Shown here in pieces: positions 1-38,658 of a stretch of DNA of 40,578 nucleotides. The stretch's first letter is position 1, and every line of letters starts with the position of its first letter. A program made the translations under genes and the position numbers. The stretch covers positions 1-40,578 of the forward strand of contig JAJYYB010000014.1 in assembly GCA_021801355.1 (NCBI GenBank), in the 5' to 3' direction. A model generated the notes under the pieces. That model made no database searches. It was not told the DNA's origin and saw only the letters and a list, made by a program, of their open reading frames with translations. This DNA is from Microcaldota archaeon (lineage in GTDB: Archaea; Micrarchaeota; Micrarchaeia; Micrarchaeales; Micrarchaeaceae).

Positions 1-1802
1 GAAACATAAGGTTCTATCAGGGCTCCACCGAGTTGCACAGCTGGTGCGAGTCAGGATGCACGAACACATCGTCAAGCGCTACGTTCTGGGTGCTCATGCC
101 GAACGGTGTGCCTTCAGGACCCAGCAGTTTGAACATGACGTTCCTTACAGTAGGCACAGCCTATGATGGCGTATACGCCGGAGAGGCGCCGGAGCTCAGC
201 CCAACCTATGGTCAGTACGATAATGGTGCAATCGTTTTCCCCTCATTCTATACCAACTTCTCCGGAGGCAACCTCAATCCTGCATTAACTGATACGGCTG
301 GCAGTGGAGTGACAATCTCAGTTAACAACGGCCTACTTATAAGAGGAGGCGGTAGCGGCAGCGAGAGTGATGGTATCGTATACACCACCGGGACATATCC
401 CAATTACATGATAGATATTGGAATAAACTCAATCAGCAGCATAGGTGGGAGCATCGACCCAAGCGTGATGGATGCGATAGGCAGCATAAGCAGCGGGTGC
501 GGCGACTCAAACTACATCTGCTCCGGCTACAGGTTCGGATACAATTATTGGAACTACGAGGAGCTGCAAATCGCGTGGTCCTCAAATAGTGGCACGCAGG
601 GCAGTGTTCCGTGCGGCGCGAGCATAGGTGGGCAGATGGGTGGTGTGCTGACCGGCGCCTGGACCTCGACAGGTAGCGAGGCCGAATACTTCAATTATGG
701 AAGCAAACTGTCATGCTCGGACGGCACTGTTGGTCTCGGCTCGACCAACCAGTACGGCTTCACATACGCTTCGAACAGCGGTTCTGCTTCGATGAGCTAC
801 TGGTGGATGAGGCTGCGTGTCGCGCCTCCCGGAGGGGTGATGCCAAGCGCCAGCTTCGGGAGCATTGTCGCACCGCAGCCAACTCGGTCCAACTTCCAGC
901 AGATGCTCACGATAGACAGCGCCAGCTACAGTGGTGCCAACGAGATAAACTCCAATTGGAACAATGTTGAGTTCACATCAGGGAATTCTGTCAACTCACC
1001 GAGCAACACGCCGTTGTACGCATGGTGCGAGTCAGGTTGCAGCAACTCCGCAGGCAGCACTGTCGTATGGGTCAATCTAGGATCTACCACGATTTCAGCG
1101 GATGGCAATGCTGTCATATACATGAACTTCATGCCGTCTAACATTATGTCGGGCCATACAAGTTACACTGGAGAAGCGCCCCAGCTCTCTCCTGTTTATG
1201 CCCAGTACGACAACGGTGCGAGTGTGTTTACATATTACCAAGCGTGGGGTGGGCTTTCAACTCTCCCTAATGGATGGAGCTATGCTAACAGTGGAGGAGT
1301 CTCACTGTCATACGGCTCCACATACACACAACTTACCGCAGGAGGCCAATGGGGGGGAATATATGAGGCCGCACCCGCAAGCACACAAGCAACAAATTAT
1401 ATTACCGATACTGATGTTTCCTGGTCTGGGACCAATGAGGAGTGGGGCACCGAGTCCAGTACAAATTTGAACAACCCATCTCCAGAAACATATTCACGTT
1501 GGACCATAAGAGTTAACGCTCCACAATTCTTTTCGAACTGTGGTTGCGCGACATCGTTGTCCCCAACATTCCCTTACTCTTTAATAAATTCGTTCTTCTA
1601 TTCGGCTACAACAACTGGTACTGTTTATGAGGGCTACGCTGCAGCGTCACCTAATCCAGTTACAGTTGATACGACACAGAACCCGACGTACTTTTATTAT
1701 GCGGCGGGCTATGGAGGAGGTAATTTGCGAATATACTGGACGAGGACAAGACTGGCGCCGCCTAACGGAGCTATGCCTACTACTACATTCATCTTGGTAT
1801 GA
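1..1802 (+). CDS. DUF2341-like repeat surface protein, 5' end outside window
   Basis: The reading frame is open from the first full codon at base 3 to TGA at 1800-1802, so the TTG at 33 is not a believable start and the N-terminus lies upstream of the window. At least two copies of a roughly 300-residue unit are visible. The first ends near base 850 and the second runs from about 870 to the stop. Each unit carries a W-C-E-S-G-C motif, a Y-x-G-E-A-P-x-L-S-P-x-Y-x-Q-Y-D-N-G-A block and a closing R-x-R-x-A-P-P-x-G-x-M-P motif. The composition is rich in Ser, Thr, Asn, Gly and aromatic residues, as expected for an exported beta-rich protein. I recall this pattern from the DUF2341 family; the exact function is unknown. 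It is paralogous to the next gene and probably cell-surface or pilus-associated. Confidence 0.85.
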   Translation, partial: NIRFYQGSTELHSWCESGCTNTSSSATFWVLMPNGVPSGPSSLNMTFLTVGTAYDGVYAGEAPELSPTYGQYDNGAIVFPSFYTNFSGGNLNPALTDTAGSGVTISVNNGLLIRGGGSGSESDGIVYTTGTYPNYMIDIGINSISSIGGSIDPSVMDAIGSISSGCGDSNYICSGYRFGYNYWNYEELQIAWSSNSGTQGSVPCGASIGGQMGGVLTGAWTSTGSEAEYFNYGSKLSCSDGTVGLGSTNQYGFTYASNSGSASMSYWWMRLRVAPPGGVMPSASFGSIVAPQPTRSNFQQMLTIDSASYSGANEINSNWNNVEFTSGNSVNSPSNTPLYAWCESGCSNSAGSTVVWVNLGSTTISADGNAVIYMNFMPSNIMSGHTSYTGEAPQLSPVYAQYDNGASVFTYYQAWGGLSTLPNGWSYANSGGVSLSYGSTYTQLTAGGQWGGIYEAAPASTQATNYITDTDVSWSGTNEEWGTESSTNLNNPSPETYSRWTIRVNAPQFFSNCGCATSLSPTFPYSLINSFFYSATTTGTVYEGYAAASPNPVTVDTTQNPTYFYYAAGYGGGNLRIYWTRTRLAPPNGAMPTTTFILV

Positions 1803-1808
1803 AACAGC

Positions 1809-1818
1809 TATTTATAAC
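1809..1818 (+). promoter_or_regulatory. TATA-like element of the second surface-protein gene
   Basis: TATTTATAAC lies about 33 bases upstream of the ATG at 1846 and directly after the preceding stop codon. This predicts a nearly leaderless transcript and separates the two paralogs transcriptionally. It is called by motif and spacing only. Confidence 0.5.
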
Positions 1819-1845
1819 CTTTCAGCGTATCTCAAATAAATTTTT

Positions 1846-3504
1846 ATGGCACGTGAAATTCTTATGAGTGCAGCAAAGCAGGAACCAAAACATTCAAGGG
1901 CCCAGTCATCGATGGAGTACCTAATGACATACGGGTGGGCCATCCTTATAATAGCGATAGCAGTTGGCGTTCTCTTCGCACTCGGCCTTTTCAACGGCTC
2001 CGCTGCAACCCCAAACGGCTGCTCCCCGCAGCCCGGTTTCACCTGCTCGAATCCGGTTTACACGCCTAACGGGATAACGGCGACGATCAGCCAGGATTCC
2101 GGCCAGAACTACTACGACGCATTCGTTTTCGTCGCTTCTGAATCAGAGAACATCGGGCCAGGCGGTCTCCCTGTCAACTTCTCCGAGTCGAACACAGTGA
2201 ACATGACACCGATAGGCACTATCCCTCCTTCAGGTACCGTGACGTTCAACTTCAATCACACAGCGGCTGGCGGCATACCTACTGCGAACATACCCGTCGG
2301 GACGGAATTCACAGGCTACATCTGGATCGCCTACTGCCTCAGCCCTGTCTGCAGCGGCCCGACAAACTTCGCAAAGGTCGGCTCCATATCGGCCAAGGAA
2401 ACCGGCGTAAGCACTTTTACGAGCGGCGGACCAACTACAACTTCATCAACCACTACATCTTCATCCACAACCAGCACATCCACCACATCGGTATATTACG
2501 TACAGATAACGCTCAGTCCAAGCAGTTCTATTTCCGGCACATTCCAGCAGAACATAACGATAAACCCATCGTCGTATTCCGGCCAGTGTTCAGGCCTCCT
2601 CGGCAGTTCTTGCGTCAACAGCGACCTTGGCAACATAAGGTTCTATTCGTCCATGTCAGGCAACGTACCGTCCGGACCCCTAGATTCGTGGCTAGAGGGT
2701 TGCCATGAGACATCATGCTCGCTATCATCGACGCAGGCGCTATTCTGGGTCACCCTGCCCGGCGGAGAGTCAGCGCCAAACACGGTAATCTACATGGTCT
2801 TCAATTCCCTCAGCACTGAATTCGACGGTTCTGTAGCTGGCGAGGCGCCGCAGCTGAGTCACTCTTACGCCCAGTACGACAACGGAGCTAATGTGTTCAG
2901 TTTCTATGACAACTTCAAATGTTGCAGCCTCAACAGCAGTTGGACGATCAGCGGCGTCCCAGTTACTGTAGATAATGGATTTAGCGCTACAGCCGCAACC
3001 TCACAGCCTTCCTACGTCGTGGACACAGGTTATAACGTAGGTTCCAACACTGTAATAGACTTCTATGGACAGGCGTACCAGAGTAGCGGGTGGGTTGATG
3101 CGGGCATTGGTACTGCATACAGCGGCACGTATGTGCCGCATCTCGCAATATCTGGAGGTGGGAGTAGCTATCCTGGAGGCGAGTGCAGCCCATCTGGAGT
3201 GGTGGGCTCCAATAGGAACAGCGGGGTAGCATGCACGTCCAACGCATTCGCTACTGGGCCAACGACTGCAGTCTGGTCCATATATGCACAGCCATCTCAA
3301 GCTACTTACTATGAGAATTACGGTGATCCACAAATAGTCACCGCGGAAATGCCTTCTTATCCGTTAAACCCTGCGCTAATACTGAGCAATGCAGGTAACA
3401 CAGCATACCCATATTCAAATACTGAGACTATGCAATGGTACAGAATAAGAGTTGCACCTCCGGGCGGCACTATGCCACACTACTTCTTCCAGTCGCTGTC
3501 TTGA
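1846..3504 (+). CDS. Class III signal peptide surface protein with DUF2341-like domain
   Basis: This is a 552-residue exported protein. Residues about 16-50 form a class III (prepilin-type) signal: a short charged stretch with S-R-A-Q-S-S-M-E-Y-L, then a hydrophobic helix ending in A-L-G-L-F. Such peptides are processed by an archaeal prepilin peptidase. Next come a Cys-containing beta-rich domain (about 55-185), a Thr/Ser-only linker (about 197-218) that is probably O-glycosylated, and a DUF2341-like domain (about 220-552) matching the repeats of the upstream gene, again closing with R-V-A-P-P-G-G-T-M-P. ATG 1864 is an alternative start. A pilin-like or surface-anchored adhesin/binding role is inferred from the architecture; the ligand is unknown. 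Confidence 0.9.
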   Translation: MAREILMSAAKQEPKHSRAQSSMEYLMTYGWAILIIAIAVGVLFALGLFNGSAATPNGCSPQPGFTCSNPVYTPNGITATISQDSGQNYYDAFVFVASESENIGPGGLPVNFSESNTVNMTPIGTIPPSGTVTFNFNHTAAGGIPTANIPVGTEFTGYIWIAYCLSPVCSGPTNFAKVGSISAKETGVSTFTSGGPTTTSSTTTSSSTTSTSTTSVYYVQITLSPSSSISGTFQQNITINPSSYSGQCSGLLGSSCVNSDLGNIRFYSSMSGNVPSGPLDSWLEGCHETSCSLSSTQALFWVTLPGGESAPNTVIYMVFNSLSTEFDGSVAGEAPQLSHSYAQYDNGANVFSFYDNFKCCSLNSSWTISGVPVTVDNGFSATAATSQPSYVVDTGYNVGSNTVIDFYGQAYQSSGWVDAGIGTAYSGTYVPHLAISGGGSSYPGGECSPSGVVGSNRNSGVACTSNAFATGPTTAVWSIYAQPSQATYYENYGDPQIVTAEMPSYPLNPALILSNAGNTAYPYSNTETMQWYRIRVAPPGGTMPHYFFQSLS

Positions 3505-3691
3505 ACAATGCAAATTCTAATCTGCAAGCTAGCCTAGTAAATCTAATAACACCATTGCAGAAAAAACGCCATTGTAGAAAACAATGCGAAAGGCGAGCAA
3601 GGAAAACATTTACAAAATTCACAAGCAAATCGCTATATATAACACAATATAACACAAAAGAATACAGAAATAACGCATGGTTAAAATTAGT

Positions 3692-3710
3692 GTAAAACTT
3701 ACGGTTTTAC
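3692..3710. repeat. Perfect 7-bp hairpin upstream of the VWA gene
   Basis: GTAAAAC and GTTTTAC flank a five-base loop. The element lies in the 274-base gap between the surface-protein gene and the VWA gene, about 35 bases before the likely TATA box. It could be a regulator site or the end of the upstream transcript. The rest of the gap is AT-rich, with a near-direct repeat (CCATTGCAGAAAA at 3552-3564, CCATTGTAGAAAA at 3569-3581) and no supported gene. Confidence 0.35.
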
Positions 3711-3744
3711 GAATAATTATTGGACAAAGTACAATGCACAAAGG

Positions 3745-3753
3745 TTTTAAATA
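3745..3753 (+). promoter_or_regulatory. TATA-like element for the VWA gene
   Basis: TTTTAAATA is centred about 33 bases before the ATG at 3782. The spacing favours ATG 3782 over the TTG at 3779 and implies a leaderless or near-leaderless mRNA. Confidence 0.45.
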
Positions 3754-3781
3754 CATATAAGGCGAGTAAGAGATACTGTTG

Positions 3782-5329
3782 ATGATAAGGATGGCGTACG
3801 AGGAAGACGAAGATGGGAACCTCGAGAATAATCTTACAAATATGCACAAGGAGGACGACATATACAAGTCCGAATCCGATCGCATAGAGAGGTATCTCAG
3901 CCAGGAAATGAAGACCCTTTACAAGGCGCTGAAGGAGGCACCGATAGTTTCAGCCGACATATTCTATGCATTATACTCAATAAGCCCTAAGGTAATCGAC
4001 CACAATGACAACGAGTTCCTCGAATCAATGAGGCAGATGATACAGCAGGTGATAGACTCGCCTGAGTTCCAGGAGCTGAGAAAGGAGACAGTGCTTAACG
4101 AAGAGAAATCTACCGCTTATACGGCTGCTATAATGCGTGAATTGTTGAGCGACCTGCAGAAACAGATCGAGAAGCAACAGCAGCAAGGCCAGAACCCAGA
4201 CAGCTACGAGCCTACCCCAGACGACCTGAAGGAGATGGTAAAGAAGGCAATGGAGGGCGACAAGTACGCGCAGGAGCAGCTGCAGAAGAAGCTGAAGGAG
4301 CTGGAGCAGGGCGGCGAGGGCGACAAGCTCGCGCAGAAGCTAAAGGACCTGCTTTCCAAGGGCAAGTCAGGCCTGGACAAGGACGTTTCTGAGATGCAGA
4401 AAGAGGAAGAAGAACGCTTAAAGCAGCAGGGTCAAGGACAGGGCCAAGGGCAGGGTCAGGGTCAGCAGGGCAACGGCAAACAGAAAGGCTCAGGGAAGGG
4501 TGCTGGCAAGGGCAATCCAGATAACGGTACCGGCATAAAGGACTACACAACGCTGCCTGTCAACAAGACCAAGCTCATAGAGTCGCTCACCAAGAAGCTG
4601 GAGAAGGCTGTGCCTGAGTTCTCTAACAAGAAGGTAAGCTCTCCTGTCGGAGACCGAATAGCAGGCTTCAGGCAGACGAAGAACATAGCAAAGGCGCTCA
4701 CAAGGGAGCTCGCCATGCCAGAGGAGATGATAATAGCCAAGGCGTTCGAGGGCTGGCTGGCCTTCGACAAGTACATAGCATTCAACGGCGCTTACTACGT
4801 GCTCATAGACAAGTCGAGCTCGATGGACGACTTCAACGGGAAGAAGGACGTCTGGGCGAGGAGCGTTGCGCTCGCGCTGCTGGACAAGGCTCAGGCCAAG
4901 GGCAGGAAGTACCACCTCAGGTTCTTCGATACGGAGTTCAGCGAGAGGCTAGACAAGCCTGCTGAGATACGTGAGGCCATAACGCATGTGGCATCGAGCG
5001 GAGGCACCACAATAAACCAGGCGATAAGCGTCGCGCTGGCCGACATAATAAACGACCCAAAGCTCAAGAAGGACACCAATACCATAATATTGATAACTGA
5101 CGGCGAGGACTCGGTATCGCCGGAGCTGGAGCAGCTCATAAAGCAGGGCAAGTGCAAGCTCATAACCATAATGATAGAGGGCAACAACGAGACCCTGAAG
5201 CATATCTCTACCGCGTACTTCACAGTGCATCCTGACAAGAAGGATGCCATAGAACTGTTCAAGGAGATGGTCAGGAAGGAGGACCAGGATAAGAAGAAAG
5301 CTGCCACCCCATCCTTGAGCTCGATGTGA
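3782..5329 (+). CDS. VWA-domain protein (CoxE/ViaA-like)
   Basis: This is a soluble protein of about 515 residues. An alpha-helical, highly charged N-terminal half leads to a low-complexity Gln/Gly stretch (about residues 215-245). A C-terminal von Willebrand factor A domain starts near residue 335, with the metal-ion-dependent adhesion motif D-K-S-S-S, a downstream G-G-T-T and an I-T-D-G-E-D strand. VWA proteins of this layout usually work with a MoxR/RavA-type AAA ATPase in metal insertion or complex remodelling, but no such ATPase lies in this window. The start is ATG 3782 by TATA spacing; ATG 3791 is possible. The domain call is solid and the partner and substrate are unknown. Confidence 0.88.
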   Translation: MIRMAYEEDEDGNLENNLTNMHKEDDIYKSESDRIERYLSQEMKTLYKALKEAPIVSADIFYALYSISPKVIDHNDNEFLESMRQMIQQVIDSPEFQELRKETVLNEEKSTAYTAAIMRELLSDLQKQIEKQQQQGQNPDSYEPTPDDLKEMVKKAMEGDKYAQEQLQKKLKELEQGGEGDKLAQKLKDLLSKGKSGLDKDVSEMQKEEEERLKQQGQGQGQGQGQGQQGNGKQKGSGKGAGKGNPDNGTGIKDYTTLPVNKTKLIESLTKKLEKAVPEFSNKKVSSPVGDRIAGFRQTKNIAKALTRELAMPEEMIIAKAFEGWLAFDKYIAFNGAYYVLIDKSSSMDDFNGKKDVWARSVALALLDKAQAKGRKYHLRFFDTEFSERLDKPAEIREAITHVASSGGTTINQAISVALADIINDPKLKKDTNTIILITDGEDSVSPELEQLIKQGKCKLITIMIEGNNETLKHISTAYFTVHPDKKDAIELFKEMVRKEDQDKKKAATPSLSSM

Positions 5330-7067: not shown

Positions 7068-7255
7068 TTCGGATTCCTCCTCGTCCCGGCGTATAATGGG
7101 ATTGTTGTCAGCATGCGCATATATACATTCTTGTTGCATATTTCATCATTGTGTTTCAATCTGGAAGCACACACCATTTACGGGTGCGAGGATGTCACCA
7201 CTACTGTCAGTATCAAAACAACAATGTTTTAATTAACCTGATTCTAAAGCAGATT

Positions 7256-7864
7256 ATGGCGTTCGGTTTGCATGTTAGTGGCAATTCAGCCCCTATGGGC
7301 TATAGCGGCTCGGATAGCTACAAGTTCATAGACAGGCTCATAAAAAGGCACAGCGGGACTTTGCGAATTGTATCGCCATATATAGGTCCTTACTACGCAA
7401 AGATGCTTGTCTCTGCAGCTATGAAAGGGAGCGTTTATGTTATAACATCAAGTTCTACTGGCCAGTCAGAGAGTCAGCAGACTGCCATACGCATACTTCA
7501 ACGCGCCGGTAAGAGGAATGTAAGCAAGAAAGTCATCGCCTACTTCGCTCTACTGCTTGTAATCTCTTTTGCAATAGGCTCGTACGCCATAATAGCACTG
7601 ATAGCACTTCTTTTCATCATAGCTCTTTACGTTGAACTTCGCCGGTCAAAGCATCCCAAGAGCGCATCAAATCTATTTCTCAAGATTGCGACCAAGAGAT
7701 TCGTGCATGAAAAGCTGTATATATCAAATTTAGAAGCAATCACAGGCAGTGCAAATCTGACATATAACGGCACCCACAAAAACATAGAGCACATAGAGGT
7801 TGTGAAGGATGATTACAGGATAAAAGTTCTCTCAGATCATTTCAGCAAACTCTGGTCGGACTGA
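7256..7864 (+). CDS. Phospholipase D-like protein with membrane hairpin
   Basis: This is a protein of about 202 residues. The N-terminal half has a PLD-like strand segment (I-V-S-P-Y-I-G). The C-terminal half has the single catalytic motif H151-x-K153, then G-S-A-N 164-167, and a conserved-looking N176-x-E178. Between them, residues 93-127 form two adjacent hydrophobic helices followed by a basic stretch, so the catalytic module is probably membrane tethered. ATG 7256 is preferred over the upstream start at 7151 because a TATA-like TTTTAATTAA sits about 25 bases before it. The substrate could be phospholipid or nucleic acid; single-motif PLD proteins usually act as dimers. Confidence 0.8.
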   Translation: MAFGLHVSGNSAPMGYSGSDSYKFIDRLIKRHSGTLRIVSPYIGPYYAKMLVSAAMKGSVYVITSSSTGQSESQQTAIRILQRAGKRNVSKKVIAYFALLLVISFAIGSYAIIALIALLFIIALYVELRRSKHPKSASNLFLKIATKRFVHEKLYISNLEAITGSANLTYNGTHKNIEHIEVVKDDYRIKVLSDHFSKLWSD

Positions 7865-12857: not shown

Positions 12858-15077
12858 CTATCTATCAAATAAAAGTGCAAGCTTTTTTTCGGCTGCCTTG
12901 TTAATAAGCTCCATAAAAAGGTCCACCTCATTCCTTGCCGTAGCATCCCAACTGAAAGATTTTGCGTTTTTTAACCCGTTTGCCGAAAGCTCTCCCCAAA
13001 AGCCCTTATCAGTTATTACTTTTTCAATCGCATCCTCAATCTGCTTGCCGTTCTTGGGATCTATAAGTACCCCATTCACATTATTCGTTATTATCATGCT
13101 TGGCCCCCCATATTTGGTCGCGACTACCGGCAGCCCGCATGCGCTGGCCTCAAGTATCGTGAGTCCAAACGGCTCTATCAATGCCGGATTTATGAATACG
13201 CCACGGCTCCTTGCAGCGATGCGATAAAGCGGCCCTAGCCCAATCTTAGGGTCTATGAATCTAACGAACGTGACTGAGCCCTGGCATTTCGAGTCGCGAA
13301 CGATCTTCTCCATACTTTGATATACTGATCTCTCCTCCTCATCAGGTTTACTGCGTAGCCTTGTGAGCACTACTAAGTTTGATATTTTTCTAAGTTTGTG
13401 GCTGTTGCAGAAAACCTCGACTAGCTTCGTCAGATTCTTCCTCCTTTCAAGCCTTGAAGCTGCAAGTATCATCGGTTTGCGTCTATAATCAAGCCCGTCT
13501 GTCATTGCGGTAATAATATCCTTATGTCGAGAGCTTGGCGTAGTAGGCGGATGGAACAGCAAAGTATCCAAACCAGGAGCGATAACGTGAAACTTCCTTT
13601 TATCTATGCGGTAGCCGGCGTACTGGTTCTCGATTTCATCACGCGTGCTAACTATTACTGCATCAGCTTTCTCTATGGCAATCTGTTCAGCGACTACTCT
13701 TTTGGAAAAATTAAAAGTATAATCATACTTAGCGTAGTTTTCTTTTTTCACGCCAAGTTTCTGCATCTTCGGTATGGCCAACGAATGTGCAGTGAATACG
13801 AATATAGAACCAGTTTTTTCTGCGAGCTCGGAGCAAGCAAGGCCCGCATCAGCATAGTTTGCATGTATAACGTCTGGCGTACCTCCCTCATTATCATTGT
13901 ATTCCATTACATTTTTTACGTATTCTTTGATATGCGGCCATAACCTCACCTTCTTAATGTAGCCTTTACCACCACAGTCTAATCTCACTATCTTGAGCTT
14001 ATCATTGATGTATTCGAAACGCTTGCCGTAACTTGGATATCTACTGTCTTCTATCCTGCGCGTCATCAGGTCGACCTGCCCAATTTGAGGTAGCTTAGAG
14101 AGGGCTTTTGCAAGTTCAATCACGTAAATTACTTGACCTCCTGTGTCCTCGTCCCTCCCAATATCAGTATAGTTCATGTTTATTAACCCGTGCATGGAAT
14201 GAATCTGGACATACAGCCCACGCTTCCTATTTTTGGAGAAGAAGCCGAAGTGCATTGCACCTTCCATAACTCCGCAAACGTCATTTCCAGTATGACAACC
14301 ATACCTGCCAGAAGAGAAATATAACGTAGGTAAAGTGGCTCTTTTTTGTGCTTTCCTCAAGACTTTGCGCTTGAGTTCTCGGGATGCGTTGTTTACCACC
14401 ACATTCTTTATGCGACTGACAAGCAAATCAAAATCGTTGTCGCTATCCCCTGCGAACATTGTATCAGGTGCTTTTATACCAATCCTTTTCATGAGCTCTT
14501 TCACTGCTCTCTTTTTTGACGCACCCCTAGGTAATACATCTAGCAATAGGTGATTTTTCCTTCCCTTGCTTAATTCTAGCGTGTACGGTATCCTAGATCC
14601 GTTGAGTTTTGCGTGCAACTCTCTCAATGCGCTGGCCTTGTTTTTATAAGAAACGTAGAAACTTCTCTTGAATTCGGATTGCCCTTCTTCTGTTTGTGCA
14701 TCGATTCCATCGATAGTTATGGCATGGTCCAAAACTTGGTTAGCAGTTTTCGCATGCCAGATGCTTTTAAGAAAGCTACGCCACCTCCGGTCGCTGACCC
14801 ATTTATTCCCATTTCCCTTTGCATATATGCCAGTACCAACATCGGTTATCAGATAGTCTGGTTCAGGAAGGCCATGTTCTTTTACGGCTCTGAGCGCTAA
14901 ATTAAGGCTTCTGCCAGTAACGTAGCAGAGTAGGGTGTCAGGATTCTTACCGAGCAGGTTTTTCAGTTTATTCAGGCATACTGAGTCCGCTTTTCCATAA
15001 AGCGGAAACATTGTCCCGTCCAAATCTGAACATAGTAACCTTCTGTTTGAAGAATTTGGTTTTTGCATATGCTGCAC
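12858..15077 (-). CDS. Fused sucrose-phosphate phosphatase / sucrose-phosphate synthase-like protein
   Basis: The 739-residue product has two enzyme modules. Residues about 12-262 are a HAD phosphatase of the sucrose-phosphate phosphatase type: D18-L-D20-G-T, T54-G-R, a Lys near 171-174, and G210-D-S-D-N-D. Residues about 286-730 are a GT-B, family-4 glycosyltransferase of the sucrose-phosphate synthase type: H-G-L-I, G-R-D-E-D-T-G-G-Q (307-315), T-A-H-S-L (429-433), R-L-E-R-R-K (542-547) and the E635/E643 pair in E-P-F-G-L-T-I-L-E. It would make sucrose 6-phosphate from UDP-glucose and fructose 6-phosphate and then dephosphorylate it. A related disaccharide such as mannosylfructose cannot be excluded. 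GTG 15077 is 25-30 bases after a TATA-like element; ATG 15068 is the alternative start. Confidence 0.88.
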   Translation of the reverse strand: MQHMQKPNSSNRRLLCSDLDGTMFPLYGKADSVCLNKLKNLLGKNPDTLLCYVTGRSLNLALRAVKEHGLPEPDYLITDVGTGIYAKGNGNKWVSDRRWRSFLKSIWHAKTANQVLDHAITIDGIDAQTEEGQSEFKRSFYVSYKNKASALRELHAKLNGSRIPYTLELSKGRKNHLLLDVLPRGASKKRAVKELMKRIGIKAPDTMFAGDSDNDFDLLVSRIKNVVVNNASRELKRKVLRKAQKRATLPTLYFSSGRYGCHTGNDVCGVMEGAMHFGFFSKNRKRGLYVQIHSMHGLINMNYTDIGRDEDTGGQVIYVIELAKALSKLPQIGQVDLMTRRIEDSRYPSYGKRFEYINDKLKIVRLDCGGKGYIKKVRLWPHIKEYVKNVMEYNDNEGGTPDVIHANYADAGLACSELAEKTGSIFVFTAHSLAIPKMQKLGVKKENYAKYDYTFNFSKRVVAEQIAIEKADAVIVSTRDEIENQYAGYRIDKRKFHVIAPGLDTLLFHPPTTPSSRHKDIITAMTDGLDYRRKPMILAASRLERRKNLTKLVEVFCNSHKLRKISNLVVLTRLRSKPDEEERSVYQSMEKIVRDSKCQGSVTFVRFIDPKIGLGPLYRIAARSRGVFINPALIEPFGLTILEASACGLPVVATKYGGPSMIITNNVNGVLIDPKNGKQIEDAIEKVITDKGFWGELSANGLKNAKSFSWDATARNEVDLFMELINKAAEKKLALLFDR

Positions 15078-16835: not shown

Positions 16836-16965
16836 AAGCGCGTTTTCAGCTTTTATGCATATTTTATCCAAACATGGCCCCCAAAGGCCCTAATCCTCGC
16901 ACGTTAAAAGTGGTTTCAAAATTGTCAAAATCACGTCGATAAATGTGGTAAAGCTGACCACCAAA

Positions 16966-16978
16966 AAGGTATTTAAAC
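16966..16978 (+). promoter_or_regulatory. TATA-like element for gyrB
   Basis: GTATTTAAACC predicts initiation near 16995-17000, leaving a leader of about 20 bases before ATG 17017. No second promoter is evident before gyrA, so gyrBA is probably one transcript. Confidence 0.45.
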
Positions 16979-17016
16979 CTGAATCCATAATAATGCTGCT
17001 ACTTATCTATGATTGC

Positions 17017-18933
17017 ATGGCTGATAATGACTATACCGCAAAGGACATTGTCGTTCTTTCCGGCACCCAAGGGGTTAGAAAGCGACCTGCAATGTACATA
17101 GGCTCTACCGCAAGTCCAGGCTTCATACACCTTCTTTATGAGGTATTAGACAACGCTATAGATGAAGCAATAGCGGGCTACTGCAGGAACATAACGATAA
17201 GACTTTCAAAGGAGGATGGCCAGGACGTTGCTGAAATCAGCGATGACGGCCGCGGCATACCAATTGATCCGATACCAAAGGTAGGAAAGCCGGCGCTTGA
17301 GGTGATAATGACATCGCTTCATTCCGGTGCAAAATTCGACAACAAAATATACCAGGTATCTGGAGGCCTTCACGGCGTTGGTCTGACAGTTGTAAACTCT
17401 CTATCTGAATATACTGAAGTGCTCGTAAAGAAGGGCGGCAAGAAATACAGACAGAGATTCAGCAGAGGCAGTCCTGTATCTGAGCTTGAGGTTATAGAAA
17501 GCATAAGCGAGAAGGATACCGGCACAACCATAAAGTTCAAACCAGACAAGGAGATATTCTCGGTAAACAGCTTTGACACAATAGCGCTGCAGGAACGCGT
17601 GCGTGACCTCTCGTTTCTGAATCCAAAAATAAAGATAACGCTTATAGACGGCAGGGAGGCACAGGAGAAGACAGAAGTTTTTGTTTCACAGAACGGGCTT
17701 AGCGACTTCATAAGCTATCTTAAGGGGCAGACCGGAGAGCTTTCCAAGCCTATATCATTCTCTAAGTCGCAGAACAACATCAAGGTGGAAGCGGTCTTCC
17801 AGTATATCAATGCGTATAGCGAAGAACTGCTCTCCTTTGTAAATAACATAAGGACATCGGAGGGAGGCATGCACGTTGTGGGCTTCCATACTGCACTGAC
17901 AAGGGTGATTACGAATTACATGCAGAAGGGTACGAAAAAGCCGACACGCCAGGAGACTTCGATAGAAGGGGATGACACAAGGGAGGGCTTGGTCGGGATA
18001 ATCTCTATATTAATGCAGGATCCAGAGTTCGAAGGACAGACCAAGGAGAAACTTGGCAACAGCACCGTAAAGACCCTAGTTGACAGTGTCTCATACGCAG
18101 CAATATCTACCTACCTAGAAGAAAATCCAGGAGAGGCATCAAAGATAATAGCAAAAGTCACTGCCGCAGCAGAGGCGCGTGAGTCAGCGAGGAAGGCCAG
18201 GGAACTTGCAAGGAAGAAGAACATGTTTGAGGGTGCTGTGCTTCCAGGGAAGCTTGCAGATTGCACTGAAAACGATCCAGAAAAAGTCGAGATATTTATA
18301 GTCGAAGGCGAGAGCGCCGCCGGATCAAGCAAGCAGGGTAGGGACAGGTTCTACCAAGCTATACTGCCACTAAGGGGTAAAATACTTAACGTTGAGAAGG
18401 CTTCCGATGAAAAGATATTCAACAATGCGGAGCTTCACACAATGGTTACTGCATTCGGTACTGGCATAAAAGAGACTTTCAATCCAGACAAGCTGCGCTA
18501 CAACAAGATAATCCTGCTTACAGACGCTGACGTTGACGGCAGCCATATCAGGACACTGCTTCTGACATTCTTCTATAGATACATGCAGCCTTTGGTGCAG
18601 CGCGGGCATGTGTACATAGCTCAGCCGCCGCTCTACAAGATATCAAAAGGTAGGGAGGTCAAGTACGCCTATTCGGAGGCAGAAATGAGCACAATACTCA
18701 AGGAATACGAGCAGAAAGCCGCATTGCAAAGATATAAGGGTCTGGGCGAGATGAATCCGGAACAGCTCTGGGAGACCACTATGGATCCACAGCATAGGGT
18801 TCTCAAGCAAGTGGTAATAAAAGACGCAGAACGTGCCAACGCGATTTTCACTGTCCTTATGGGACTTGATGTAGAGGCTAGAAGGAAATTTTTGGAGGAG
18901 CATTCAAGCGAAGTCTCATTCCTCGACGTATAA
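17017..18933 (+). CDS. gyrB: DNA gyrase subunit B
   Basis: This bacterial-type GyrB of about 638 residues is the ATPase and metal-binding half of gyrase. The GHKL ATPase has E-V-L-D-N-A-I-D-E, D-D-G-R-G-I-P and G-L-H-G-V-G. The Toprim region has E-G-E-S-A-A-G-S-S-K-Q-G-R-D-R and D-A-D-V-D-G-S-H-I-R. The C-terminal tail has Q-R-Y-K-G-L-G-E-M-N-P-E-Q-L-W-E-T-T. The frame opens at 16945, but homology starts just after M-A-D-N-D-Y-T-A-K-D, so ATG 17017 is chosen. With gyrA it introduces negative supercoils. Gyrase in archaea is generally seen as acquired from bacteria. Confidence 0.97.
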   Translation: MADNDYTAKDIVVLSGTQGVRKRPAMYIGSTASPGFIHLLYEVLDNAIDEAIAGYCRNITIRLSKEDGQDVAEISDDGRGIPIDPIPKVGKPALEVIMTSLHSGAKFDNKIYQVSGGLHGVGLTVVNSLSEYTEVLVKKGGKKYRQRFSRGSPVSELEVIESISEKDTGTTIKFKPDKEIFSVNSFDTIALQERVRDLSFLNPKIKITLIDGREAQEKTEVFVSQNGLSDFISYLKGQTGELSKPISFSKSQNNIKVEAVFQYINAYSEELLSFVNNIRTSEGGMHVVGFHTALTRVITNYMQKGTKKPTRQETSIEGDDTREGLVGIISILMQDPEFEGQTKEKLGNSTVKTLVDSVSYAAISTYLEENPGEASKIIAKVTAAAEARESARKARELARKKNMFEGAVLPGKLADCTENDPEKVEIFIVEGESAAGSSKQGRDRFYQAILPLRGKILNVEKASDEKIFNNAELHTMVTAFGTGIKETFNPDKLRYNKIILLTDADVDGSHIRTLLLTFFYRYMQPLVQRGHVYIAQPPLYKISKGREVKYAYSEAEMSTILKEYEQKAALQRYKGLGEMNPEQLWETTMDPQHRVLKQVVIKDAERANAIFTVLMGLDVEARRKFLEEHSSEVSFLDV

Positions 18934-18945
18934 AGTGGCAATAGA

Positions 18946-21360
18946 ATGGCCCAAACATTTGATACACCAATAGAAAAGGAGATGCAGTCCAGCTACTTGG
19001 ACTACGCCATGAGTGTAATAATAGGCAGGGCACTGCCTGACGCAAGAGACGGCCTCAAGCCTGCTCAGAGGAGGATTCTCTACTCAATGTATAAGCTAAG
19101 TAACTTCAGCGACCAGCCTACAAAGAAAAGCGCTAGGGTGGTTGGAGACTGCATAGGCAAATACCATCCTCACGGTGATATAGCCGTGTACGAAACACTG
19201 GTCAGGCTGGCACAAGACTTCTCAATGAATCACACTCTAGTCCAAGGGCAGGGCAACATGGGCTCTATCGATGGTGATCCACCGGCAGCACAGCGTTACA
19301 CAGAGGTGAGGCTAAACAAGCTCGCCGAGGAGATGCTTTCCGATATAGAGAAAAAGCCAGTTCCTTTCGTACCTAATTTCGACAACACTGAGGAAGAGCC
19401 GCTGATACTGCCCGCCAAGGTACCTAACCTGCTTTTGAACGGCGCTGCCGGAATCGCAGTCGGCGTCGCTACAAACATAATGCCCCACAACCTTAACGAG
19501 ATAGCGGACGGCGTGATCGCTTACATAGACGACCCAAACATATCGATACAGAAGCTTCTCGAATACATTAAGGGCCCTGACTTCCCGACTGGCGGAATAA
19601 TATTCTATGATGGCGGGCTGATAAACTCCTACTTGACAGGGAGGGGAGCCGTTACTGTAAGAGGAAAGACGAATATAGAAAAGCACAACAACAGGCAGTC
19701 TATAGTTATCACTGAGATACCATACGCGCTCAACAAGTCTCTGCTTGTCCAGAAGATAGCAGAATTGGTGAAGGACAAGACGCTCACCGAAATAGCAGAC
19801 CTGAGGGATGAGAGCGGAAAGGAAGGCATACGCATCGTAGTCGATCTAAAGGCCGATGCCAACCCTGACCAAGTGCTCAACATGCTATACGCGCACACAC
19901 AGCTGCAGCAGAGCATACACATAAGCAACATAGCCGTGATTGGCAACAAACTCGTCACGCTCAACCTGAAAGAGTTCATAAAGGTATTCGTACAGCACAG
20001 GCTGGAAGTTATAAAGAAGAGGGTCGAGTACGATTTCAATGTCGCTTCAGACAGGCTCCATATAGTCGAAGGCCTTCTCGTGGCCATGCTTAACATAGAA
20101 GGTGTAATAGAACTGATAAAGAAGAGCTCCGACTCCAAGGAGGCCAGAGTTTCCCTGGTCTCAAAGTACGGCATATCCGAGAAACAGGCAAACGCAATAC
20201 TAGATATGAAGCTGGGCAGATTGACAAGCCTGGAAAGCACCGCGTTGAACACAGAGAAGCTTCAGCTACAGCAGAGCATCACCAGCTTCAAGGAAATACT
20301 CGCTGATGAAAAGAAGGTTTACGGAATAATAAAGGAAGATATGACGGAGCTCAAGGCGAAGTTCGGCCGTGAACGGAGGACGCAGATAGAGGAGGGAACT
20401 AACGTCGAGCCTATAGAGCAGGAAGACCTTATAAGTGATGATGACGCCACTGTCATACTCACAAGGAACAACTACGTCAAGCGTATGCCGATAGAGGTCT
20501 ACAAGCTCCAGTCAAGGGGCGGTAAAGGAGTTATAACAATGGGCCTGAAGGAGAACGACTATCCGAAGAGCCTAATATCATGCAAACTCAAGGATTACCT
20601 CCTTGTGATCTCAACACTCGGCAGGCTTTACTGGCTCAAGGCGTATCTGGTGCCTGAAGCGCAGAGGTATGGGGCTGGTAAAGCCATAGTCAACCTAGTC
20701 AAACTTCAGGAAGGTGAAGGCGTCTCTGTAATAGTGAACACACGAAACTTCTCAAAGAGCTACCTTGTTTTCATAACCAAGAAGGGCAAGATAAAGAAGG
20801 TAATGGCTGAGAGGTTCTCAAACCCTAGGTCCAACGGCGTCCGCGCGATACCGTTGCTCCAAGGGGATGAGCTGGCAGATGTGGCGCTTGCAGAAATCTC
20901 TTCGGAGATATTTGTGGCTACTAAGGCCGGAAAGGCGCTGAGGTTTAGCGAAGCGAGGCTGAGGCCCATGGGCAGAAACGCAGTAGGCGTGCGCGGCATA
21001 AGGCTCGCTCAGGATGACGAAGTGGTTAACATAATATCTGCAAGGCATGACGACCTTGTCGTATCTATAACTGATAAAGGCTTCGGCAAAGCTACGAGGC
21101 TGGATGAATACCGCCTGCAGAACAGGGGCGGTAAAGGCGTTATAAACGTAAAGCTGAAGGAAAAGACGGGCAACGTAATAAAGGCGGTCAAGGCTTCAGA
21201 GAAAGATAACATAATATTGATAAACTCTAATGGTGTCTCAATAATGTTCCCGATATCCTCTGTAAGGATAACCGGTAGGAGCGCCAGTGGTGTGCATCTC
21301 ATGAGGCTCGACGCAGCTACAAAGGTTGTAGACGCCAGAGTGCTCCAAGAGCAGCAGTAA
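18946..21360 (+). CDS. gyrA: DNA gyrase subunit A
   Basis: This 804-residue DNA-cleaving subunit lies 12 bases after gyrB. The breakage-reunion domain has R-A-L-P-D-A-R-D-G-L-K-P and the catalytic tyrosine at 118 in A-A-Q-R-Y-T-E. The C-terminal beta-pinwheel carries a gyrase-box variant, Q-S-R-G-G-K-G, near residue 521, and a similar Q-N-R-G-G-K-G near 724. The box indicates a true gyrase able to wrap DNA rather than a ParC. In the quinolone-binding region the position matching E. coli Ser83 is Ile79, and the position matching Asp87 is Glu83. ATG 18946 fits the family start. Confidence 0.97.
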   Translation: MAQTFDTPIEKEMQSSYLDYAMSVIIGRALPDARDGLKPAQRRILYSMYKLSNFSDQPTKKSARVVGDCIGKYHPHGDIAVYETLVRLAQDFSMNHTLVQGQGNMGSIDGDPPAAQRYTEVRLNKLAEEMLSDIEKKPVPFVPNFDNTEEEPLILPAKVPNLLLNGAAGIAVGVATNIMPHNLNEIADGVIAYIDDPNISIQKLLEYIKGPDFPTGGIIFYDGGLINSYLTGRGAVTVRGKTNIEKHNNRQSIVITEIPYALNKSLLVQKIAELVKDKTLTEIADLRDESGKEGIRIVVDLKADANPDQVLNMLYAHTQLQQSIHISNIAVIGNKLVTLNLKEFIKVFVQHRLEVIKKRVEYDFNVASDRLHIVEGLLVAMLNIEGVIELIKKSSDSKEARVSLVSKYGISEKQANAILDMKLGRLTSLESTALNTEKLQLQQSITSFKEILADEKKVYGIIKEDMTELKAKFGRERRTQIEEGTNVEPIEQEDLISDDDATVILTRNNYVKRMPIEVYKLQSRGGKGVITMGLKENDYPKSLISCKLKDYLLVISTLGRLYWLKAYLVPEAQRYGAGKAIVNLVKLQEGEGVSVIVNTRNFSKSYLVFITKKGKIKKVMAERFSNPRSNGVRAIPLLQGDELADVALAEISSEIFVATKAGKALRFSEARLRPMGRNAVGVRGIRLAQDDEVVNIISARHDDLVVSITDKGFGKATRLDEYRLQNRGGKGVINVKLKEKTGNVIKAVKASEKDNIILINSNGVSIMFPISSVRITGRSASGVHLMRLDAATKVVDARVLQEQQ

Positions 21361-27039: not shown

Positions 27040-27681
27040 ATGCACCTCTCAAACATGGCGATAATCACGGGCAACTGGGAAGATATATTCAGTTCTGAAG
27101 GGGTAACTTGGCATGGCGTACAGGAGGACGTTCCTAAAATCGCCCACATATTGAAGCACGTAAGGGCAAATAAAATCCTTGACCTTGGCTGTGGCACTGG
27201 TAGGCATACAATCTACCTTGCAAAGAAAGGCTTCAATGTATACGGATTCGACATGTCTGTTACAGGAATACGCTACACAAAGCGGCGTCTAAAAGCCAAA
27301 GGGCTCAAGGCGCACATTTCGGTGCACGATATGTCAGCAGGCATACCATACAGAAGCGGCTTCTTTGATGCTCTTATATCAATTCAGGTAATAGACCACA
27401 ATACTGCAAAAGGCCTTAGGAGCACTATAAATGAGATATATAGGGTGCTGAGAAAAGGCGGCACACTCTTCGTCTCGGTGCAGAGCAAGCGCGCCCTGGC
27501 AGGTAACAAGCACAGGTTCCTCTCGAAGTACACATACATACCGCTGGATGGCGGCGAGAAGGGCTTATTGCACCACTATTTCACTGCAGGTACATTGCGC
27601 AGCGCATTCAAGAACTTCGATATAAAAGACGTGCACTTGGACTCTTATGGCCAACTATGTATTTTGGCTACTAAGCCTTGA
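27040..27681 (+). CDS. Class I SAM-dependent methyltransferase
   Basis: The protein of about 213 residues has motif I I-L-D-L-G-C-G-T-G-R-H, the strand-2 acidic end V-Y-G-F-D-M-S, and the motif IV region F-D-A-L-I-S-I-Q-V. The N-terminus resembles other members with W-E-D-I-F before the SAM fold, so ATG 27055 is also a good start; the frame opens at TTG 27016. It follows the HAD gene closely, so the two may be co-transcribed. Its 3' end overlaps the convergent prs gene by 11 bases. The substrate is unknown. Confidence 0.85.
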   Translation: MHLSNMAIITGNWEDIFSSEGVTWHGVQEDVPKIAHILKHVRANKILDLGCGTGRHTIYLAKKGFNVYGFDMSVTGIRYTKRRLKAKGLKAHISVHDMSAGIPYRSGFFDALISIQVIDHNTAKGLRSTINEIYRVLRKGGTLFVSVQSKRALAGNKHRFLSKYTYIPLDGGEKGLLHHYFTAGTLRSAFKNFDIKDVHLDSYGQLCILATKP

Positions 27682-28546
27682 GAGAAGTGGCTATTTGGCC
27701 ACCTATATCAAGAATCTTTGCACCATCGTAAGGTACAGTGTTGGTGCCAAATATTTCGGATACGCCTGCACCTTTCATCCTGTCCTTCGCACCGCTTGCC
27801 ATTACCAGGTGGGTAGCAACTGCAACCACCTTTTCGGCACCCTTTGAGAGTACCTCCCTGGAAGCCTGCGCTATAGTGCCTCCGGTGCTTATTATGTCAT
27901 CAATTATCACAACGTCCTTGCCCTTGAATGAGCCTACGAGCGGTGCCTCTATCTTCACCTCCCACGTGATGCTGTCCCTCACCTTGTCTATGTGAGAGTA
28001 CTTGCAGCCCAGTATCTCAGCAAGCTCCTTAGCCCTGGCAACGCCTCCCTTATCCGGCGCAAGTACTATCGGATCGTTCAGTATCTTTGATATAGCCTTG
28101 GCCTGAACTGGCACCGGGTCCACTATGCAGACCCTGCCATTGAACGCATCGAAAGGGGTGCTCTTATGAGGCTGCACAACTGCGAGCGAAGATACCCCTA
28201 CTGAATTGATAAGCCTCAATACTGCCTGCGAGCTTATCGCCTCCCCATCAAGGAACCTCCTGTCCTGCCTCAGGTATGCCATGTAAGGAACTACGGCCGT
28301 TATGCTTTTAGCCCCCAGCTCCCTTGCAGTGTCTGCCATGAGAAGGAGCTCCATTATATGCTTGTCCTGCGGACTGTATGTTGACTGAACGAGGACGACG
28401 TCCTCGCCCTCAATGCCTTCTGGCATCTTTACATAAGACTCGCCATCAGGGAAGAGCTTTGACACCGCCTTTACCGATCTAGCGTGCAGTGACTTCCCTA
28501 TGCTATCCTCCAGGCCGTTCGATGCCGGGCCTCCAATGACAAGCAT
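27671..28546 (-). CDS. prs: Ribose-phosphate pyrophosphokinase
   Basis: The 291-residue enzyme makes PRPP from ribose 5-phosphate and ATP for nucleotide, histidine and tryptophan synthesis. Visible signatures are F-P-D-G-E-S-Y, Q-S-T-Y-S-P-Q-D-K-H-I-M-E-L, R-Q-D-R-R-F and the PRPP loop V-I-I-D-D-I-I-S-T-G-G-T. The length fits archaeal class enzymes, slightly shorter than bacterial ones. On the minus strand a CTTTTAAG element about 25 bases before ATG 28546 overlaps an inverted repeat, AGACTT/AAGTCT (28565-28578), which could be an operator. Confidence 0.95.
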   Translation of the reverse strand: MLVIGGPASNGLEDSIGKSLHARSVKAVSKLFPDGESYVKMPEGIEGEDVVLVQSTYSPQDKHIMELLLMADTARELGAKSITAVVPYMAYLRQDRRFLDGEAISSQAVLRLINSVGVSSLAVVQPHKSTPFDAFNGRVCIVDPVPVQAKAISKILNDPIVLAPDKGGVARAKELAEILGCKYSHIDKVRDSITWEVKIEAPLVGSFKGKDVVIIDDIISTGGTIAQASREVLSKGAEKVVAVATHLVMASGAKDRMKGAGVSEIFGTNTVPYDGAKILDIGGQIATSLKA

Positions 28547-28616
28547 AATGAGTTATTAGAATTCAGACTTAAAAGTCTTCTCATCACAGACCCAAAGCGC
28601 TATGTGCATAGCAAAG

Positions 28617-29396
28617 TCATACTTCGTCCTTCTTGCTGAAAAGCTCGTCGGCCCTTTTTTTCGCTATAGCGGTTTTCAGCAACTGTATCGCGAAGGCCGG
28701 GTCTACGGACTTGGGGCACACCTTCGAGCAGGAGCCCGAGAACTCGCAGCCCCATACATTATCGCCGGTGTCAAGGTACTCTAGTCTCTTGTCGCCCGCC
28801 TGGTCCTTAGAATCAGCGTAATACCTGTAAGCCTGCGCGAGCGCCTGCGGGCCGGCGAAGTTCTTGTTTATGTTCGATACAGGGCATGCATCGACGCAAA
28901 GCCCGCACTTTATGCATTCGGAGAACGGCAGGAAATTGTCGCGCTGGGCATCGGTTTGCATGAACTCCTTTTCATGGCTGTACTTCTCTGATGGATTGTT
29001 CCTCATTATCCAAGGCTTCATAGCCTTGTGGTGCTCAAAAAAGTCATCGAAGTCTGTCACAAGCCCCCTAAGTATCGGGTGGCCGTGCATAGGCTCTACG
29101 GTTATGGTATTGCTCTGCTCCCTAAGCACGTTCGTCTCGCATGCCAGCGCCGGCCTGCCGTTTATCACCATAGCGCAGGAGCCGCATATCCCCATCCTGC
29201 AGCTATACCTCATCGATATCTTCTTGTCCTCGCTCTCGTTTATGCCTATAAGCGCATCAAGCACCGTGGTAAGGTTTGTCACGTTCAGGTCTCGGGCTGA
29301 CCTGCTGAAAGACTCCGTGTTCGGATCAAACGAGTTTACCACGAATTTTACTTTCTGCGTATAGTCAGTTTTAGCAGCTTTCGCTTTTTTAGCCAT
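28617..29396 (-). CDS. sdhB: Succinate dehydrogenase/fumarate reductase iron-sulfur subunit
   Basis: The 259-residue electron-transfer subunit has the 2Fe-2S plant-type ligands in S-C-R-M-G-I-C-G-S-C with a distal A-L-A-C, then the bacterial-ferredoxin-like domain with C-I-K-C-G-L-C-V-D-A-C-P and C-E-F-S-G-S-C-S-K-V-C-P-K. It passes electrons between the flavin subunit and the membrane anchors. ATG 29396 is chosen over the frame opening at 29471. It overlaps the anchor gene by 8 bases and is last in the operon sdhA, anchor 1, anchor 2, sdhB. The direction in vivo is not decided by sequence. Confidence 0.95.
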   Translation of the reverse strand: MAKKAKAAKTDYTQKVKFVVNSFDPNTESFSRSARDLNVTNLTTVLDALIGINESEDKKISMRYSCRMGICGSCAMVINGRPALACETNVLREQSNTITVEPMHGHPILRGLVTDFDDFFEHHKAMKPWIMRNNPSEKYSHEKEFMQTDAQRDNFLPFSECIKCGLCVDACPVSNINKNFAGPQALAQAYRYYADSKDQAGDKRLEYLDTGDNVWGCEFSGSCSKVCPKSVDPAFAIQLLKTAIAKKRADELFSKKDEV

Positions 29397-29598
29397 GCAT
29401 AAACACCTCCCAGAAACCCAGGATGCCGTAAACCAATGAGGCAACGCCCAAAAGGAACGCGAAAACATCAAGTATTATAGGGAACAACTGAACCGGAAAG
29501 AAGGCATAGACAAGCGATATCACCGCAACGAGCCAGAGCAGGACGGGCACACCTATCATCGCGCCGTAGAAAAATCTCATTGTTTCGAATCCGCTCAT
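29389..29598 (-). CDS. Succinate dehydrogenase membrane anchor subunit 2
   Basis: The 69-residue protein starts at an ATG that overlaps the stop of the preceding gene (ATGA) and ends 8 bases inside sdhB, so its place in the operon is firm. It has two hydrophobic helices (about 12-35 and 40-63). It is too short to be recognised by sequence alone; the call rests on position. ATG 29610 would add four residues. It presumably anchors the SDH catalytic subunits and helps bind quinone. Confidence 0.72.
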   Translation of the reverse strand: MSGFETMRFFYGAMIGVPVLLWLVAVISLVYAFFPVQLFPIILDVFAFLLGVASLVYGILGFWEVFMHG

Positions 29599-30008
29599 AC
29601 TGTCCACCATACCAGCATTATAAAGAAGCCCATGAGCCAAAGCAGCATCGCGCCGTAAGGCATGATATCGAAGAATCCTGTCCTTACCTTGTATTTTGAC
29701 TTTTCGAGGAAGACACGCTCCTGGCTGAAATGACCGAATGATAGCCCCCCGGTGCTTATCATAGAAAGCATTTTCACGCTTTCGAAGAGCTGCGGCGTTA
29801 TGAGCACCCACACCAGCGCGGTCAGGAGCTTTATCAGCAATAGCGGCACAGAGATGAGAAATGAAAGCAGCAGCACTATGCCGTATATCATCGATATAAA
29901 GACGAGTATCCTGAAGAAGAGCATGTGGATGAAGCCCTCTATGTCAAATCCCGCCAGCCTTATTATGTTTGATTGGCTTCCCCTCATATCGTAAAGCTTC
30001 TTCTCCAT
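29595..30008 (-). CDS. Succinate dehydrogenase membrane anchor subunit 1
   Basis: The 137-residue membrane protein is encoded 9 bases after sdhA. The hydrophobic stretch at about 27-78 is long enough for two helices, and a third lies near 115-136, with a polar, basic segment (90-112) between. His28 and His92 are the only obvious haem-ligand candidates. No Cys-rich CCG motif is present, which argues against the type E anchor. The call is made from operon position and topology, since sequence similarity to known SdhC is not evident. Confidence 0.72.
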   Translation of the reverse strand: MEKKLYDMRGSQSNIIRLAGFDIEGFIHMLFFRILVFISMIYGIVLLLSFLISVPLLLIKLLTALVWVLITPQLFESVKMLSMISTGGLSFGHFSQERVFLEKSKYKVRTGFFDIMPYGAMLLWLMGFFIMLVWWTV

Positions 30009-30017
30009 CGCCCTTAC

Positions 30018-31769: not shown

Positions 31770-31913
31770 ATTTTAACATTATTTGTAATCATCTTTAAAA
31801 TACTAACGCAAACACCCTTGCAGTTGCAAGCACAGAACGCAACTAGCAAAATAGCTAAAGTCTAAAAGCTTTTGATGCTAATCCAAAATAAGGGTTAATA
31901 ATTCGTTGATTTT

Positions 31914-33293: not shown

Positions 33294-33395
33294 AAGCGGT
33301 TGCTGCTGCTCGATGTAGAGATATGTCTGCACCAAATATTGTCGCGTTTTGCTTTACACTGCAAGCCCTTGCAGATGTATTGAAAGCTGGTTGAT

Positions 33396-34682: not shown

Positions 34683-34684
34683 GT

Positions 34685-34690
34685 CTAAAA
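34685..34690 (-). terminator. Short oligo-T terminator of the aldo/keto reductase gene
   Basis: A six-base T run on the minus strand lies about 20 bases after the stop at 34712, within the 29-base convergent gap. Confidence 0.35.
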
Positions 34691-34711
34691 AAGAGAAAGC
34701 ATGCACCCACT

Positions 34712-35641: not shown

Positions 35642-35825
35642 CGCGCCAGAAGCTACAGCTTCCAGAATTAATCAAAGCCGCATTTTGCCGTTCTGGCGAT
35701 TAAACATAACTATTATAAGATTTAAATGCGATAATATTGCAGTAGTAAGTTGGATAAACTACCAAATATAAATGGTTTTACTTTAGGTTAGCGTTAACTG
35801 TAATACAAAGTTGCATACCAACTGA

Positions 35826-35838
35826 TTTTATATTTTAA
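35826..35838 (+). promoter_or_regulatory. TATA-like element for the oxidoreductase operon
   Basis: TTTTATATTTTAA is about 27-30 bases before ATG 35859, giving a leaderless transcript for the two-gene operon. Confidence 0.5.
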
Positions 35839-35858
35839 CCTACCTAAATCAACACTGC

Positions 35859-38658
<2,800 letters not shown>

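Follow-up and report, generated by a model that had tools for sequence, protein, structure and literature searches.

The 40,578-nucleotide stretch analysed here (the window; positions 1 to 40,578 of contig JAJYYB010000014.1, assembly GCA_021801355.1 of a Microcaldota archaeon) carries a gene in which a sucrose-phosphate phosphatase (SPP) domain is fused ahead of a sucrose-phosphate synthase (SPS) domain. The product is a conserved, probably bifunctional enzyme in an unexpected host. Judging from its sequence, we consider it fairly probable that this protein is a self-contained two-step disaccharide enzyme, with SPS and SPP activities working on a nucleoside diphosphate (NDP)-glucose and fructose 6-phosphate, that it originated from an adjacent spp-sps gene pair, and that it serves the synthesis of a compatible solute.

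The fused gene and its catalytic residues

The gene is a single open reading frame (ORF) at 12858..15077 on the minus strand, to which all coordinates within the gene refer; the first-pass annotation of this DNA, which had recognized an SPP ahead of an SPS in one archaeal gene, gave no strand. The ORF starts with GTG, has no internal stop and encodes 739 amino acids. The N-terminal HAD-IIB sucrose-6-phosphate phosphatase domain (residues 12–279, 14241..15044) matches Pfam S6PP with 168 bits against a gathering score of 20.3 (E=3.4e-49), and the search of the organism's own genome returned the same span. Taken alone, this domain matches the Synechocystis SPP (1s2o) with E=2.7e-18. The C-terminal GT4 glycosyltransferase (GT) domain (residues 288–715, 12933..14216) is assigned to SPS by the NCBIfam model TIGR02472 (SPS glycosyltransferase domain; E=2.9e-119, 398.8 bits, the top-scoring NCBIfam model), by its best solved relative in sequence, Halothermothrix orenii SPS (2r60; phmmer E=1.9e-66, 31% identity), and by its position in the tree described below. 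A short junction (residues 280–287, 14217..14240, within FFSKNRKRG) joins the two. The AlphaFold2 model of the fusion (alignment of 27 sequences) has a mean pLDDT of 89.7 and a pTM of 0.80. Its top PDB match in Foldseek is again 2r60 (E 3.8e-35, target TM 0.77), and the phosphatase half matches 1s2o with a target TM of 0.84.

Both modules had been described as complete in their catalytic motifs, and all motifs quoted then (D18/D20, T54, G210-D-S-D-N-D, G307-R-D-E-D-T-G-G-Q315, T429-A-H-S-L433 and E635/E643) are indeed found at the respective residues. HAD motif I, D18-L-D20 (15018..15026), provides the nucleophile and the acid/base and aligns with D9/D11 of Synechocystis SPP (slr0953), an unfused enzyme with the same catalytic residues and fold; motif IV, G210-D-S-D-N-D215, was located by alignment at 14433..14450. 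All seven residues of the phosphatase catalytic set (D18, D20, T54, K188, D211, N214 and D215) are present in the window protein. The set is intact in seven of the nine fusions found in Micrarchaeota; one of the remaining copies is truncated by a contig end and the other bears a D211N substitution. In contrast, the C-terminal HADs of the bidomain SPSs, which combine the same two domain families in one polypeptide (GTD-PHD; Synechocystis, Synechococcus, many Proteobacteria, Verrucomicrobiota), lack at least one of the seven residues in 26 of the 53 proteins sampled, 18 of them at the motif III Lys. Several bidomain loci with such an incomplete HAD also have a separate intact SPP gene nearby. 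Bifunctional SPS/SPP activity has been demonstrated for some bidomain enzymes (PMC4390843).

The substrate-site elements of the synthase domain were likewise placed by alignment: the G307–Q315 loop (14133..14159), counterpart of the GGQ of H. orenii SPS, an acceptor-site span with K376, Y408, S432 and R460 (13698..13952), and the donor-site motif E635-P-F-G ... E643 (13149..13175). GGQ, R542, K547, E635 and E643 are present in all nine fusions. K376, S432, R460 and P636, the state typical of SPS, are found in 9/9 fusions, 6/6 stand-alone kin and 53/53 bidomain SPSs, whereas sucrose synthases have R, A, Q and A at these positions (12/12), a state that the fusions do not show. Q315 and D410 of the fusion are replaced by M and L in MshA. 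The protein from H. orenii shares the fold as well as the acceptor and donor residues with the fusion and has no phosphatase domain.

Substrates and alternative reactions

K376, Y408, S432 and R460 align with what we take to be the residues holding the acceptor phosphate in MshA and SPS structures. The acceptor of the GT domain is therefore most likely a sugar phosphate, and together with the attached S6PP domain this makes fructose 6-phosphate the natural candidate. In the reaction that we propose, the GT4 domain would move a hexose, most likely the glucose of NDP-glucose, onto fructose 6-phosphate yielding sucrose 6F-phosphate, and the HAD domain would strip the phosphate from this intermediate and so render the step irreversible. 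The end product would be sucrose, and tethering of the domains may favour hand-over of the intermediate.

The supply of precursors was examined family by family in the host genome (Candidatus Micrarchaeota (Microcaldota); 1.07 Mb, 96% complete). It encodes a cupin-type glucose-6-phosphate isomerase (PGI) and PGM/PMM; the fructose-bisphosphate (FBP) aldolase/phosphatase V, a further source of fructose 6-phosphate, is absent from it. There are two sugar nucleotidyltransferases, one RmlA-like and located beside rmlC- and rmlD-like genes, the other scoring best as mannose-1-phosphate guanylyltransferase-like. Since a canonical GalU was not apparent in the host genome, it is not certain that UDP-glucose is supplied, and the donor may instead be dTDP-glucose or GDP-mannose, the sugars which the reduced genome seems equipped to activate.

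The second of these donors suggests a mannosylfructose-type enzyme that would use GDP-mannose and fructose 6-phosphate and then dephosphorylate the product. The guanylyltransferase-like gene of the host agrees with such a reaction, and mannosylfructose-phosphate synthase and its phosphatase from Agrobacterium belong to the same two families as the domains of the fusion. Nevertheless, the top matches by sequence, structure and tree are all SPSs (in a comparison set that held no mannosylfructose reference sequences), and we regard this reaction as rather unlikely.

An acceptor of another kind (glycerol-phosphate, inositol-phosphate or a glycan intermediate), with the HAD acting on the resulting phospho-disaccharide, appears improbable: although the acceptor phosphate site is common to MshA-like enzymes, both domains belong to sucrose families, the first to S6PP and the second, with Q315 and D410, to the SPS part of GT4. 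A precedent for such an acceptor is GgpPS, the enzyme of glucosylglycerol synthesis, whose glycosyltransferase and phosphatase families differ from those of the fusion. It is found in heterotrophic bacteria (Marinobacter, Stenotrophomonas) and, like the fusion, has an N-terminal phosphatase and a C-terminal synthase and is a compatible-solute enzyme, with a different substrate (PMC10873239).

Ancestry of the two halves and distribution of the fusion

The first-pass annotation pointed out that the order of domains is reversed relative to plant and cyanobacterial bidomain enzymes. This holds: S6PP is N-terminal and GT is C-terminal in the fusion, and all bacterial two-domain homologs examined are synthase-first. 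In the GT tree (outgroup: Halothermothrix SPS and a Nostoc homolog) the fusions are monophyletic (98/93) and lie within the SPS part of GT4, next to the bidomain SPSs and near stand-alone synthases of Desulfobulbia and Woesearchaeota; a placement in an unrelated GT4 clade, considered earlier, is thus not what the tree gives. Either the stand-alone synthases or the bidomain SPSs may be the sister of the fusions (approximately unbiased test, p-AU 0.20 for either). The HAD tree is more definite. Here the domains from Micrarchaeota are one group (support 100) nested among stand-alone SPPs (98) and separate from the HADs at the C-terminus of bidomain SPSs; a forced clade of the fusion and bidomain HADs is rejected with p-AU 0.00014. 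The fusion is thus independent of the classical bidomain SPS, with at least its phosphatase half having been recruited separately.

A plausible source of the fusion is seen in three Desulfobulbia genomes (L040, L042/L101 and L103), where spp stands directly ahead of sps, that is, in the gene order of the fusion and as two proteins. Their GT domains are among the closest GT homologs (38–42% identity). In L042 the end of spp (...GVIEGCYHFKLFTE) is followed by an in-frame TAA and one more codon before sps starts (MGLYIQMHSMHG), while in L040 and L103 the two genes occupy different frames and either overlap or lie a few bases apart. In the Micrarchaeota junction, ...GVMEGAMHFGFFSKNRKRGLYVQIHSMHG, the counterparts of these ends are bridged by about five residues, and the junction coincides with the spp stop and sps start of the pairs within a few residues. 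It is likely that the adjacent genes of Desulfobulbia represent the pre-fusion state, and the simplest origin that we infer is loss of the stop codon that parts two such neighbouring genes. In the Woesearchaeota locus L043 the two genes stand in the other order. In two Desulfobulbia genomes (G301 and G303) a separate spp-sps pair coexists with both a bidomain SPS and a sucrose synthase.

The position of the junction at the spp/sps boundary and the rejected HAD clade make it very improbable that the gene is a domain-shuffled bacterial bidomain SPS, circularly permuted from GT-HAD to HAD-GT and then acquired by Micrarchaeota, even though the GT tree (p-AU 0.20) would allow such an origin.

The full fusion was found in nine of 301 genomes of the Micrarchaeota phylum, which belong to three family-level groups (three genomes in one genus, five in a second family of the same order and one in another family of the class). 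The eight genomes other than the host have colinear orthologs with 49–71% identity to the window copy, one truncated by a contig end, so this is a conserved gene and neither a chance frame nor an assembly join. The loci L003–L010 and L032–L039 appear to come from the same eight genomes, and counts from these two sets are not independent. As the assemblies are drafts and Desulfobulbia are among the nearest stand-alone relatives, we considered whether the gene might stem from faulty assembly or binning or from bacterial DNA contaminating the metagenome-assembled genome; this is hardly credible for a monophyletic gene at such identities in nine genomes from three family-level groups of one phylum, with differing neighbourhoods.

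Outside Micrarchaeota no SPP-first fusion was found in the genome censuses, which are samples, or among the plasmid homologs examined; the scan of named genomes used two short patterns and is therefore biased to close kin. The 371 genomes of the phylum of Woesearchaeota yielded only two GTs and one SPP, all of them stand-alone. There was none in 258 genomes of the class Desulfobulbia (~130 with SPS homologs), where all full-length two-domain proteins examined are synthase-first, and none among the plasmid homologs examined, of which L075, L077 and L081 are synthase-first, L076 and L078 encode the two domains in separate frames, that of the synthase coming first, and L079 of Paracoccus has HAD and then GT as separate and distant genes. 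On the 10.8-kb plasmid p6 of Acidithiobacillus sp. AMEEHan (L078), a compact sucrose cassette combines SPS with an MFS transporter, a PfkB kinase and a GH100 family protein, and its SPP is annotated in two adjoining pieces. A viral origin of the fusion was rejected: it has no relatives in viral contigs, the phage matches are distant GT4 proteins only, and the structure matches in BFVD are generic.

The suspicion that SPP-first fusions might already be common or described was not borne out either. The SPS architectures described in the literature searched are GTD and GTD-PHD only (PMC4390843), and according to a survey of 2015 archaea have neither an SPS nor a combination of S6PP with GT (PMC4663468). 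No description of SPS in DPANN or Micrarchaeota was found in the open literature (subscription papers were outside the search). The same domain order is known from an artificial SPP-SPS fusion of plant enzymes, built for sucrose in Arabidopsis and poplar, and this transgene promoted plant growth (PMC4493782).

Genomic neighbourhood and physiological role

In the window the fusion is surrounded by genes for VKOR, an HD-domain protein, tRNA-Lys (the only structured RNA near the gene), a methyltransferase, PadR, gyrB and gyrA, and no synteny with these neighbours is conserved among the Micrarchaeota fusion loci. The gyrB and gyrA genes (16945-21360) provide this archaeon with a complete DNA gyrase, and GyrA scores above the bacterial equivalog cut-off. 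Elsewhere in the window there are three large ORFs of 589, 552 and 516 aa (33-5329) with no or marginal family matches, the second being weakly similar to DUF2341; a phospholipase D-like protein (7151-7861) with weak similarity to DpdK/DrmC (7.6e-8, below cut-offs); and a cluster of central metabolism (27671-38658) with flavoprotein and Fe-S subunits of succinate dehydrogenase/fumarate reductase, fumarase C, an MFS transporter and subunits of 2-oxoacid:ferredoxin oxidoreductase.

In four of the nine genomes a Na+/H+ antiporter or an MscS channel is encoded within ~2 kb of the fusion: antiporters in L035 (G153; two in tandem) and L037 (G141), MscS in L032 (G238) and L039 (G282), the last also with a Na+/Ca2+ exchanger on the opposite side. 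These four neighbourhoods are unrelated to one another. GH13 enzymes of the amylosucrase and sucrose phosphorylase type are absent from eight of the nine genomes (GH32 and GH100 invertases were not searched for); the only genome with one is that of L034 (G143), in which an integrase-family gene (378-1709 of that locus) lies close to the fusion gene, hinting at mobility. As a first lead, the antiporter and MscS neighbours together with the absence of GH13 enzymes from most of the genomes speak for a compatible solute rather than for carbon storage and hint at a role in osmoadaptation or ion stress. Of the two routes suggested initially, the compatible-solute one thus receives some contextual support and carbon storage receives none; sucrose would act under salt or osmotic stress.

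Several observations weigh against the fusion being a sucrose-forming enzyme of spp-sps origin with such a role. The TIGR02472 score of 398.8 bits is below the curated equivalog-domain cut-off of 576 bits, and the missing GalU has been mentioned above. The ortholog L010/L038 (G165) has AGNSGND in phosphatase motif IV, and this D211N substitution may mean a weakened phosphatase there. The GT tree alone does not reject a clade of the fusions and bidomain SPSs. The window's own neighbours say nothing on osmotic stress, and the occurrence of antiporter or MscS neighbours in four genomes versus 0.30 expected by chance from counted family sizes (P(>=4) ~1e-4) concerns families that were picked after being seen, which qualifies this value. 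We nevertheless hold the two-step SPP-SPS enzyme on NDP-glucose and fructose 6-phosphate to be the probable one. A bolder variant, namely a one-polypeptide compatible-solute pathway of Micrarchaeota in which an independent SPP-first fusion would make a non-reducing disaccharide from dTDP-glucose or GDP-mannose in place of the textbook UDP-glucose and in association with the neighbouring Na+/H+ antiporters and MscS channels, is offered tentatively and seems somewhat doubtful.

Accounts of sucrose synthesis usually deal with cyanobacteria, plants and bacteria, and the fusion suggests that a reduced-genome archaeon of the DPANN type can accommodate both steps of the pathway on a single polypeptide. 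Fusion of SPS and SPP has arisen at least twice and in opposite orders, with the unfused gene pair pointing to an intermediate. The enzyme may be the natural counterpart of the engineered plant SPP-SPS (PMC4493782) for studying substrate hand-over, and it provides a concrete hypothesis for how Micrarchaeota cells may handle osmotic stress.
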